Assembly (NCBI RefSeq): GCF_900128985.1
Contig: NZ_FQUC01000017.1
Location: 1 to 64,000 of the forward strand
Origin: Indolivaga macrotermitis
GTDB taxonomy: Bacteria; Bacteroidota; Bacteroidia; Bacteroidales; Dysgonomonadaceae
Direction: 5' to 3'
Length of the DNA: 64,000 nucleotides
Shown here piece by piece: positions 30,401-34,390 of the stretch (within the stretch, counting starts at the first letter, position 1; each line of letters begins with the position of its first letter). The position numbers were made by a program, and so were the translations under genes. Under the pieces are notes generated by a model. That model saw only the letters and a program-made list of their open reading frames with translations. It had not been told where the DNA came from and ran no database searches.

Positions 30401-30687
30401 TATAATTTTCTTTTCTTTAATCTAATTACCTTTCTCTTACTTGCTTTTATTTTCAGACAAGAAGATTCCGTTTTTAAGAATACCACATCACAACCTATTA
30501 AACATTTGCTGTTTTGTAATAATTCAGATTTTCCTCAATACTACTTTCTTCTATAGATTTTTATAAAAAGTCGCAAGTTGTAAAATTACAAATTATTGGG
30601 TTTATATTCACATATATTCAATAAAAAAAGAATAAGGACTCATCAGAATCCTTATTCTTTTCAGATATATTTTGTCGATATAAAGCT
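30401..30687. other. 287-bp spacer between lysS and the HU-LysM gene
   Basis: AT-rich and without a convincing ORF. It holds the 30627-30660 terminator of the upstream minus-strand gene and should contain the lysS promoter. I find no strong TAnnTTTG box on the minus strand within it. Confidence 0.4.
30627..30660 (-). terminator. Terminator of the HU-LysM gene
   Basis: A 12-bp perfect stem (AAAGAATAAGGA at 30627-30638, TCCTTATTCTTT at 30649-30660) with a 10-nt loop. The minus strand continues with TTTTTTAT. It lies 27 nt past the stop. Confidence 0.75.
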
Positions 30688-32778
30688 TTATCTTAAAATT
30701 CTTTCGGCAAGGTTCTTTGCCTTTTGTATCTCCCGCTGATCTTTTGTACTGGATACTCCGTAATCATCCAAATCGGGTATAACCAGATTGGTTCCTATAG
30801 GAACACGGTTCGGGTTTTGAATTCTGCTTTTATTAGCCTGATAAATATACACCCAGAAGTCTCCGTTTCCGTAATGCTTTGTCGAAAGGTTGCGTAATGT
30901 CACCCCTCTTCTGATAACATCGTATTTAGGCTTCGACTGTTGCTTCTTTACCTCCTCGGTTTTATTTGCGGCAGTCTCCCGTGCTGCTACTTCGGTTTTA
31001 GGTGTCTTTGGTGGATATTTAAGCAAATACATTTGAGCCTTATTTATCACCTCTATCTTTAAATTCTTTGATATTTCCCTATCCGGTACATGCGTTTTTT
31101 TAGAAGCCGAATCTTGCTTTGCAGGAACAGGCGCAACGTTAGCAGGTAATGCTGCAGGTGTTACTTTGACCGAATCTGCGGATCTGTTTGTTTTCAAAGA
31201 ATCCAGCAGTGAACTTGTTTCAGCTATACTATCATCCGCTTCGTCGATCAGAGGTAGTGTATCGGATGTTGTTAAATTCAACCTATCCAGTTTATTCTCA
31301 TAATCGTATTTTACATTGAATAGCGGAATAACGTTATATGCAATAAATCCGAGGACAACCAAACCCAGTAATGTCCATGGTAACACCTTCTTTATCTTGT
31401 CACCTAAAGTAGGGGCATAATAGTCATGATAAGGTATTTCTACATCATCGATATTCTCGGAATATGCTACACTTCTGATTGTTGTAGGCTTATTATTTCC
31501 AACCTGATTAACAACAGGTTCTATATTCTTATCTGCATTGTCGGAATCTTCAATATCTAAGAAATCCGTTTCTGATATAACTATATCATCATCCCGTAGA
31601 AGCGGACGCTCCGGATCTTCATCGGTAAAGATTTTATCATCGTCAGATATATGCTTCAAATCCCATGGGTTTGATTTTGCTGCCGAAGCATCCACAGGTT
31701 TCTCTTCTGATGGCTTGGACAACACTTTCGCCGGAGGCAAAGTCACATCGTCTTCGGTCTCTATTTCAGAATCAACATCGATCAGATCATCCAGCTCCAA
31801 TTCTGATCTCGATGGAACGATCGGCTCAATATATTGCTTTTCCGAGTCCCTCTTACGTGTATCTGGTTTTATCTTATCCTGAGGGGTTGCTTCTGTAACA
31901 ATTTCGTTCTCTACTACATCTGGTGTAGGCATTTCCTCTACAACCCTCTGTTTTTTCTCTTCCGTTTTTATTGGAGCAGACACAGTATTACTCTCTACAT
32001 CCTGCGGTACATGCTCTTCCTTAACTTCTTCTACTTGCTTTGGTTCGGGTTGCTTTTCTGGCTGAATAGAATAATCCTGCGTCGGTGTTCTATCCCCTTT
32101 TACAGGAGGAGCTGTATTAACAGAAACACTTACCAAGTCCTCTTTAGGCAAGGTGATTGTGATGGAATCGGGTTTCTTTTCCGTCGAGCTAAATGTATAT
32201 GTGTATGAATACGAGCTAAATGACGGATACTGAACCGGCGGAGTAGTTGGTCTTACCGGTTGTCCTTCAACCTTATCTTTAATTGGTTGTTCTATATCTT
32301 TTTTTGCCTCTTCCGGTTTATCTTCGGGCATCTTTGTTTCTTTCGGATTATTACTCACAGTTTCCTCTTGTGGAATATCAATGATATATTCTTTTTCATC
32401 ATCCTCGCTTATATCGTCATTCAAATCGGCGTCATCAGACGAATCAAAATCAACTCCGTCTTCCAACAAAATTGTTTCGAATTGCGAGAAAGGTTTATTA
32501 ACTAAATTTTTTAACGTTTTATCGGGTACAAAACTCAATTTATAATGAGCCCGTATTTCTATTTTTTCACCGGTATTAACATCGACACTTTCACGACTGC
32601 TTACTGCTACCAGCTTAAACGTACCAAAATCTTTGATCTTGACAGAGTCATTCTCAAAGATACGGTCGAGTATTAGCTGGAAGAATTCCCTAAAAAAAGA
32701 GTCTGCTTCCTTTTTTGTTATTTTAGACTTCTTGGCCAGAAGGTCTACCAAATCCTGAAGTGCTAGCTTATTACTCAT
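30688..32778 (-). CDS. HU-like DNA-binding domain fused to a membrane helix and LysM domain
   Basis: The 696-residue product has an unusual layout. Residues 1-95 match HU/IHF DNA-binding proteins (LQDLVDLLAKKSKITKKEAD, VKIKDFGTFKLVAV). Residues about 115-460 are acidic, Pro/Lys/Glu-rich and probably disordered. A single membrane helix follows at about 466-488 (LPWTLLGLVVLGFIAYNVIP), and residues about 616-666 look like a LysM peptidoglycan-binding domain (YDVIRRGVTLRNLSTKHYGN, IPIGTNLVIPDL-like end). The predicted topology puts HU in the cytosol and LysM in the periplasm. It overlaps the HU gene upstream by 8 nt. A role in tethering chromosome to envelope is inference. Confidence 0.82.
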   Translation of the reverse strand: MSNKLALQDLVDLLAKKSKITKKEADSFFREFFQLILDRIFENDSVKIKDFGTFKLVAVSSRESVDVNTGEKIEIRAHYKLSFVPDKTLKNLVNKPFSQFETILLEDGVDFDSSDDADLNDDISEDDEKEYIIDIPQEETVSNNPKETKMPEDKPEEAKKDIEQPIKDKVEGQPVRPTTPPVQYPSFSSYSYTYTFSSTEKKPDSITITLPKEDLVSVSVNTAPPVKGDRTPTQDYSIQPEKQPEPKQVEEVKEEHVPQDVESNTVSAPIKTEEKKQRVVEEMPTPDVVENEIVTEATPQDKIKPDTRKRDSEKQYIEPIVPSRSELELDDLIDVDSEIETEDDVTLPPAKVLSKPSEEKPVDASAAKSNPWDLKHISDDDKIFTDEDPERPLLRDDDIVISETDFLDIEDSDNADKNIEPVVNQVGNNKPTTIRSVAYSENIDDVEIPYHDYYAPTLGDKIKKVLPWTLLGLVVLGFIAYNVIPLFNVKYDYENKLDRLNLTTSDTLPLIDEADDSIAETSSLLDSLKTNRSADSVKVTPAALPANVAPVPAKQDSASKKTHVPDREISKNLKIEVINKAQMYLLKYPPKTPKTEVAARETAANKTEEVKKQQSKPKYDVIRRGVTLRNLSTKHYGNGDFWVYIYQANKSRIQNPNRVPIGTNLVIPDLDDYGVSSTKDQREIQKAKNLAERILR

Positions 32779-33061
32779 TTTCAGACAGTTTTTTCAGTTT
32801 ATCTTTCACTACTTGTCCTGGCCTGAATGCCGGAGTAATTTTAGGAGGTACCAGAAAACGCTGTTTTGAAACGGGATTAACAGAAACCCGTTCCTGCCGC
32901 CTCTTTGTTTCGAATAGTCCGAAACCTTGAATATTTATTGAATTAGTACTTGCTAAGTTAGTATTTACAATCGAAACCGCATCTTCTAAAACAGATGCAG
33001 TCTGGTTCTGGCTCCAGTCCAACCGTCTCGAAAGTTCAGCTATTAATTCCTTATTTGTCAT
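32771..33061 (-). CDS. HU/IHF-family DNA-binding protein
   Basis: The 96-residue protein has the compact HU fold: an N-terminal helical part (MTNKELIAELSRRLDWSQNQ), then beta-arm residues (INIQGFGLFETKRRQERVSV, NPVSKQRFLVPPKITPAFRP). The family dimerises and bends DNA in the nucleoid. The end of this gene overlaps the start of the HU-LysM gene by 8 nt in another frame, so the two are probably translated from one message. It is 30 nt downstream of rimO. Confidence 0.9.
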   Translation of the reverse strand: MTNKELIAELSRRLDWSQNQTASVLEDAVSIVNTNLASTNSINIQGFGLFETKRRQERVSVNPVSKQRFLVPPKITPAFRPGQVVKDKLKKLSENE

Positions 33062-33091: not shown

Positions 33092-34390
33092 TTACGATAC
33101 AATGTCCGCATATATATCAAATGGCTCGGCACTTGTTACTTTAACATTGTATATCTCCCCAATTTTCAATTCTTTATCTTTAGTTACCAATACTTCCGGA
33201 TCCACCTCAGGCGAATCAAATTCCGTACGGCCTATATAATAGTCTTCGTCTTCTCGATCAATTATAACTTGTAATACTTTACCTATTTTCGCTTCATTAG
33301 AATCTAGTGCTACACGCTCCTGGATAGCCATTAACACATCCATTCTTTCCTGCTTAACACTTTCCGGTATATTGTCTTCGTATTCGGAATAAGCATATGT
33401 GCCTTCTTCGTTTGAATAAGGAAAGGCGCCCATCCTTTCGAATTTTACGTCTTTCACGAATTGTACCAATTCTTCAAAATCAGCATCGGTTTCACCCGGA
33501 TGCCCTACCAAAAAAGTTGTACGGATATGTATCCCCGGTACTTCCCGTCTAATCCTATTAATCAGCTCAATAGTTTCCTTTTTAGATATATTCCTTCGCA
33601 TTTTGGTTAACATATTGTCACTAATATGCTGAAGCGCTATATCAAGATATTTACAAACGTTATCTTTTTCGCGCATAACCCGAAGTACATCATATGGGAA
33701 TTTCGCAGGATATGCATAATGTAATCTAATCCACTCTACCCCATCTACTTCAGATATTCGCTCTATAAGCTCTGCCAGCTTCATCTCTTTATAGAGGTCT
33801 AGTCCATAATAAGACAAATCCTGAGCTATAATCTGGAATTCTTTAACACCTTGCCCGACAAGCGACCTCACTTCCTGTACGATTTCTTCTATCGAACGGG
33901 ATTTATGCCGTCCTGTCATTATAGGAATAGAACAATATGAACAAGCCCTGTTACACCCTTCTGATATTTTCAGATAAGCATAATGACTGGGTGTTGTAAG
34001 TGCTCTTTCGTATTCGACATCCTGCTTGAAAGACTTCCCTAAGTCTGATATAAGCCCCTTCCATCCGAATTTTCCGTAAAATCTATCGACTTCAGGTATC
34101 TCGGTTCGAAGCTCTTCCATATATCTTTCAGATAAGCAACCCATTACAAACAGCTTGCTTAACTTCCTATTCTTCTTCGCTTGTGCAAACCCCAAAATCG
34201 TATTAATCGATTCTTCTTTTGCATCGCCTATAAAGCCACAAGTATTTATAACCACTATTTCACCTTCTGGCTTTTCGGGATCATGCTTCACAGTATACCC
34301 ATTAGCCAACAATTGCTTCATTAACATCTCAGAATCTACCAGATTCTTCGAACAGCCTAATGTTACAACATCTATCTGATTCTTTTTCAT
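33092..34390 (-). CDS. rimO: Ribosomal protein S12 methylthiotransferase RimO
   Basis: The 432-residue radical SAM enzyme adds a methylthio group to Asp of ribosomal protein S12. The N-terminal MTTase domain (VVTLGCSKNLVDSEMLMKQL, with Cys for the auxiliary cluster), the radical SAM motif CNRACSYCSIP and a C-terminal TRAM region (about 365-432, VLQVIIDREDEDYYIGRTEF) fit RimO. It is encoded 72 nt downstream of ftsY and 30 nt upstream of the HU gene. Length is normal. Confidence 0.96.
   Translation of the reverse strand: MKKNQIDVVTLGCSKNLVDSEMLMKQLLANGYTVKHDPEKPEGEIVVINTCGFIGDAKEESINTILGFAQAKKNRKLSKLFVMGCLSERYMEELRTEIPEVDRFYGKFGWKGLISDLGKSFKQDVEYERALTTPSHYAYLKISEGCNRACSYCSIPIMTGRHKSRSIEEIVQEVRSLVGQGVKEFQIIAQDLSYYGLDLYKEMKLAELIERISEVDGVEWIRLHYAYPAKFPYDVLRVMREKDNVCKYLDIALQHISDNMLTKMRRNISKKETIELINRIRREVPGIHIRTTFLVGHPGETDADFEELVQFVKDVKFERMGAFPYSNEEGTYAYSEYEDNIPESVKQERMDVLMAIQERVALDSNEAKIGKVLQVIIDREDEDYYIGRTEFDSPEVDPEVLVTKDKELKIGEIYNVKVTSAEPFDIYADIVS

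Follow-up and report, generated by a model that had tools for sequence, protein, structure and literature searches.

The window examined here is a stretch of 64,000 nucleotides from Indolivaga macrotermitis. On its reverse strand, a short HU-type gene (HU1) is followed by a long one whose product joins a second HU domain (HU2) to a membrane helix (TM) and a LysM-type domain. The features of the locus are:

33092..34390 (-): rimO, upstream, in the same likely operon
32771..33061 (-): HU1, 96 aa, retaining proline and basic arm; 3′ end shares 8 nt with the start of HU2
30688..32778 (-): HU2-TM-LysM gene, 696 aa, 78.7 kDa, pI 4.7
32497..32757 (-): HU2 domain, residues 8-94, assigned by Pfam and by fold
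31408..32478 (-): putative cytosolic linker, residues 101-457, acidic, predicted disordered, fast-evolving
31309..31407 (-): single membrane helix, residues 458-490, predicted N-in, C-out
30937..31308 (-): putative periplasmic linker, residues 491-614
30691..30936 (-): LysM-type domain (about 615-670) and C-terminal helix, residues 615-696
30623..30661 (-): likely intrinsic terminator past the HU2-LysM stop, stem AAAAGAATAAGGA/TCCTTATTCTTTT, loop 10, T run

Both rimO and ftsY lie upstream of HU1, the former as claimed in an earlier first-pass annotation of this DNA, and the order rimO-HU1-HU2 is usual, occurring in most relatives whose locus extends that far. In a Paludibacter MAG (L033), the HU pair stands behind a recJ-like gene instead. 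The 8-nt overlap between HU1 and HU2-TM-LysM sits in ...GAAAATGAGTAATAAG..., and directly after the stop of the latter comes a 13-bp stem with a T run, which was spotted by direct reading of the sequence, its 10-base loop exceeding the limits of the automated scan. Given this stem and T run, HU2-LysM is probably the last gene of the transcript, and rimO, HU1 and HU2/LysM likely form one operon. The Bacteroidetes promoter motif did not exceed its chance frequency, and sigma-70-like sites were as numerous as in shuffled sequences. We saw no protease or regulatory gene adjoining the HU pair.

Domain architecture of HU2-TM-LysM

The 696-aa open reading frame proved real, lying exactly where the first-pass annotation had placed it and on the same strand. 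Its 357-aa linker behind HU2 consists of 26% Asp plus Glu, carries a net charge of -53 and is predicted to be disordered, and residues 458-490 are the sole strong hydrophobic helix in the AlphaFold model, with KIKK on its N side; the acidic linker and the one membrane helix described previously are thus both borne out. The N flank of this helix is net basic in most members of the HU2-LysM family, and the sequence of HU2-TM-LysM has no N-terminal signal-like or hydrophobic segment. Together with the well-established positive-inside rule, these features lead us to expect an N-in/C-out orientation, and a bridge from cytosol to periplasm, as had been proposed, is the best reading of the topology.

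At the N-terminal end, the HU2 domain passes Pfam PF00216 with 74.4 bits (cut-off 22.4). Its AlphaFold model shows the HU fold, with two helices, a beta arm and a C-terminal helix, at a mean pLDDT of 82.7 when HU1 rows are added to the alignment, compared with 45 for the HU domain in the full-length run, where the alignment was shallow, and the top PDB matches of the model in Foldseek are HU and IHF (E ~1e-8). An HU-like domain is therefore well founded. Its earlier description as a DNA-binding domain fits the fold but not the DNA-contact residues: in the window protein, valine replaces the intercalating proline (Pro63 of E. coli HU-alpha), and the equivalents of Arg55, Arg61, Lys67 and Lys70 are lost or reversed. 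In the family as a whole, valine occupies the Pro63 position in 29 of 43 HU2s, Val or Ile replaces Arg55 and Arg61, Glu replaces Lys67, and the arm charge averages -0.7; Asn at position 90 is nonetheless invariant (43/43) and is followed by a conserved (K)PF. In the deepest family members the HU2 arm is canonical (NPQTG/NPRTG), which makes the ancestral unit look DNA-binding. Measured by the intercalating proline and basic arm of a canonical DNA-bending HU, HU1 passes and HU2 fails. HU2 is accordingly an HU-superfamily domain that is non-canonical as a DNA-bending HU and, in the window protein, is predicted to be a poor DNA binder. The domain is still basic overall in the window species (pI 9.4), so weak DNA contact, or DNA binding as a homodimer, is conceivable.

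For the C-terminal domain, the LysM assignment stands by family profile, NCBIfam model and predicted fold, but not by the Pfam cut-off. The family profile leads to the LysM domain of Kbp (PDB 7pvc, E = 3e-7), PRK11198 matches with E = 1.3e-8, below its equivalog cut-off, and residues 615-696 are modelled by AlphaFold as a beta-alpha-alpha-beta fold at a pLDDT of about 77-90. Structure prediction of the domains, suggested earlier as a check, has in this way returned an HU fold at one end and a LysM-type fold at the other. With Pfam LysM (PF01476), the isolated domain gives no match, and weak matches arise in 6 of 17 relatives, the best at E 0.00067. Because the domain falls short of this cut-off and its closest relatives of solved structure are Kbp and phage-tail proteins, binding to peptidoglycan cannot be taken for granted. 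Elsewhere in the order, the version of the protein in a Tannerellaceae MAG (L032, 4078-5766) has three LysM-type domains in a row past the membrane helix, its gene running beyond the contig end. An unrelated OmpA-type envelope protein (L058/L117) has a LysM domain of this kind at its end (FWVYIYEANR...), which indicates that this LysM type is common to envelope proteins of the order.

HU1 and HU2 as a pair

HU1 lies directly upstream of HU2-LysM in 43 of 50 distinct homologues, with overlaps of 4, 8 or 11 nt as the rule and short gaps as the exception. The remaining seven comprise a partial locus (L052, whose HU1 is visible in L086) and six proteins in which HU1, HU2, TM and LysM are fused in frame; L118 holds a seventh such fusion. 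These single-protein forms (L022, L025, L026, L027, L051, L118 and L119) span at least five genera and three families. In that of L025 (664-1737), the second HU is cut to about its last strand and helix, and HU1 looks intact.

A tree built on about 100 columns, many of whose inner forks are open, places HU1 and HU2 in two clades that are distinct from one another and also from the ordinary HUs in the tree (100/92 support). HU1 keeps Pro63 in 37 of 43 cases and, relative to E. coli HU-alpha, retains Lys/Arg at 53-55 and Arg58, its arm charge averaging +3.5 against +3. The first-pass annotation had described an overlap with a normal HU gene: the overlap holds, but we reject the word "normal", as HU1 forms a clade of its own, adjoins HU2 and travels with it. 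HU1 is best described, from these patterns, as the apparent dedicated partner of HU2-TM-LysM in a two-gene unit.

Gene fusion and conserved adjacency are a classic sign of a physical pair, and for HU and IHF the natural form of such a pair is the dimer. The conserved overlapping order and the natural fusions thus point to an HU1/HU2 heterodimer. As the proline and arm residues are lost in HU2 and kept in HU1, DNA contact is more likely to be made mainly via the co-encoded HU1. The simplest history would start from an ancestral pair in which both arms bound DNA, followed by decay of one arm in most Bacteroidales.

Distribution, selection and genomic context

The same domain order is common to the 50 distinct HU2-LysM homologues, most of them from Bacteroidales and the others from a single, more distant family of the phylum. 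Of 41 close genomes, 30 gave matches in a search with the single protein, and the LysM profile picked out its domain in 32 of 148 Bacteroidales sampled. Inspection of the loci behind these profile matches showed most to be HU-TM-LysM units and a few to be other LysM proteins. Beyond the order, 99 genomes sampled across the class yielded nothing convincing, and a phylum-wide sample contained the full unit in three genomes of one distant family (f137). In the members from this family (L110, L111 and L112), a further conserved stretch of ~60 residues follows the LysM domain. The genome that holds the window is Dysgonomonas-like, and a scan of named organisms gave three loci, the closest in D. capnocytophagoides.

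Between Dysgonomonas species, dN/dS was 0.02-0.03 in HU, about 0.1 in LysM and looser, at 0.10-0.31, in the linkers, several saturated dS values having been left out. The HU and LysM ends are thus under strong purifying selection; the linkers drift and seem to serve mostly as spacers.

The same genome encodes an HU-CCDC81_bac_1/bac_2-TM-SPOR protein (L034, G000:C36, 772-2004). This kind of protein is widespread: at E <= 1e-4, PF18175 finds a match in 135 of the 148 Bacteroidales sampled, and in 115 of these the match is over its cut-off. With both proteins present, the genome may have two nucleoid-wall links. A second, more degenerate HU/LysM set lies by hisS (L123, G000:C22:104500-108500, 835-2516); it consists of an 83-aa HU-like protein, a 286-aa HU-like/TM/LysM-type protein that has hardly any HU arm, and a TM-LysM protein of 154 aa, and congeners carry LysM matches corresponding to it. 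ParB-type proteins are present in the window's genome, and a search of it for MinC gave no match.

Discussion

In this study, we relate an unusual HU protein to its genomic partner and to a possible role at the cell envelope. Domain order, topology signals, genomic pairing, natural fusion and the asymmetric loss of DNA-contact residues are read directly from sequence; the heterodimer, its binding to DNA and to the wall, and its biological role are what we infer. On balance, we lean towards HU2 being the wall-anchored subunit of an HU1/HU2 heterodimer that links the nucleoid to peptidoglycan. Soluble HU1 and the HU2 domain would be made side by side from overlapping genes and would then pair, the pair holding DNA mostly via the HU1 arm. 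From HU2, a long acidic disordered tether would run to one inner-membrane helix, beyond which the periplasmic LysM domain would hold peptidoglycan. Such an arrangement would physically connect the nucleoid with the cell wall; it may serve to position the chromosome, to segregate it, or to coordinate division with the nucleoid. Against this heterodimeric tether speak the acidic linker, which would repel DNA, the failure of the LysM domain to reach the Pfam cut-off, and the basic pI of HU2 in the window species, with which it might bind DNA as a homodimer. More tentatively, and with somewhat less conviction than doubt, we suggest for these Bacteroidales an ancient, dedicated two-subunit HU, one subunit of which is built into the membrane and grips the wall, as a direct and largely sequence-independent nucleoid-peptidoglycan tether beside the HU-TM-SPOR tether.

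Several of our findings could be read differently. The proline and arm charge are lost in most HU2s, the linker of HU2-TM-LysM is long and acidic, and the HU-type domains at the genome's second locus are still more degenerate, all of which would suit an envelope scaffold with no link to DNA, in which HU2 is a docking domain for HU1 or other partners and the linker recruits proteins. Protein docking has already been proposed for CCDC81-type HU domains. The partners of HubP bind mainly its acidic cytosolic part (PMC8789113). Nevertheless, HU2 is accompanied by an HU1 with its DNA-contact residues kept, and the HU2 arm of the deepest members is canonical; we regard such a scaffold as rather unlikely. 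It is a good deal harder to believe, as the first-pass annotation implied, that an HU2 homodimer alone binds DNA and tethers the chromosome, with HU1 an independent nucleoid protein. The strong PF00216 score and the basic pI of HU2 in the window species would fit, but its arm residues and proline are lost, and fusion of HU1 to HU2 and the conserved overlap of their genes speak for a common function.

The dedicated partner and long exposed linkers would also be in keeping with sequestration, whereby HU1 is held at the envelope and freed, for example by proteolysis, according to the state of the wall, altering nucleoid packing or expression. We consider this very improbable, as a protease or regulatory gene adjoining the pair was not seen and the natural fusions would make HU1 non-releasable except by cleavage. 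Finally, the idea that HU, membrane and LysM segments were joined by chance or in assembly found nothing in its favour and is rejected with near certainty, given the same order in 50 homologues from many genomes and the low dN/dS at both ends.

If true, the wall-anchored heterodimer would couple the nucleoid directly and mechanically to the cell wall, and would be a natural case of an asymmetric HU that has given up one of its arms. To our knowledge, chromosome positioning and segregation in Bacteroidales are poorly known. The two-gene unit is compact and conserved, and in some cases it is one fused protein, which makes the idea testable with simple biochemistry.

Comparison with known systems

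The first-pass annotation knew of no described function for this order of domains. This remains so for HU-LysM proteins, of which our literature searches, whose coverage did not take in Burroughs et al. 2017, returned no study, but not for the layout in general, since an HU-membrane-SPOR precedent exists in Bacteroidetes: in that work, in Cell Cycle, Burroughs et al. reportedly predicted HU-CCDC81_bac_1/bac_2-TM-SPOR proteins with a role in chromosome partition. An HU-TM-wall layout had thus already been predicted, and we found no description of a two-subunit HU (anchored plus soluble), of its LysM end or of the natural fusions. The HU-CCDC81_bac-TM-SPOR proteins (PF18174, PF18175, PF05036) likewise combine cytosolic HU-superfamily domains, one membrane helix and an outer domain of peptidoglycan-binding type. 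They differ in that their HU domains belong to PF18174/PF18175, that a single chain holds both, no separate partner gene having been seen, and that their wall domain is SPOR rather than LysM-type; they are near-universal in Bacteroidales, whereas HU-TM-LysM occurs in about a fifth. In the window protein, neither PF18174 nor PF18175 is listed even at E 0.1, and the C-terminus carries the LysM-type domain with no SPOR domain. We therefore reject membership of that family, although by analogy the window protein probably works like its members.

Kbp (YgaU), a potassium-binding protein whose LysM comes closest to the C-terminal domain among solved structures, is a BON-LysM protein and lacks both an HU domain and a membrane helix of the HU2-TM-LysM kind. 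IHF alpha/beta and HU alpha/beta share the HU fold, and in IHF two diverged subunits pair; both of their subunits are soluble and proline-bearing, whereas here one is membrane-anchored and has lost the proline. With engineered single-chain IHF (PDB 2iie), the likeness to the natural HU1-HU2 fusions goes no further than layout. In HubP/FimV of Vibrio and relatives, a periplasmic LysM domain, a single membrane helix and a long acidic cytosolic region recur in reversed order, with LysM at the N end. HubP comprises periplasmic LysM, TM, acidic cytosolic repeats and a C-terminal TPR region; polar targeting requires its LysM, which also suffices for it, and the protein is linked to the chromosome origin by way of ParA1 (PMC8789113). 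It thus differs from the window protein in contacting the chromosome via ParA1, in lacking an HU domain and in having a TPR region, for which the window protein gave no match. Overall, the predicted HU-CCDC81-TM-SPOR proteins are the closest relative in kind, and HubP is the closest tested analogue.
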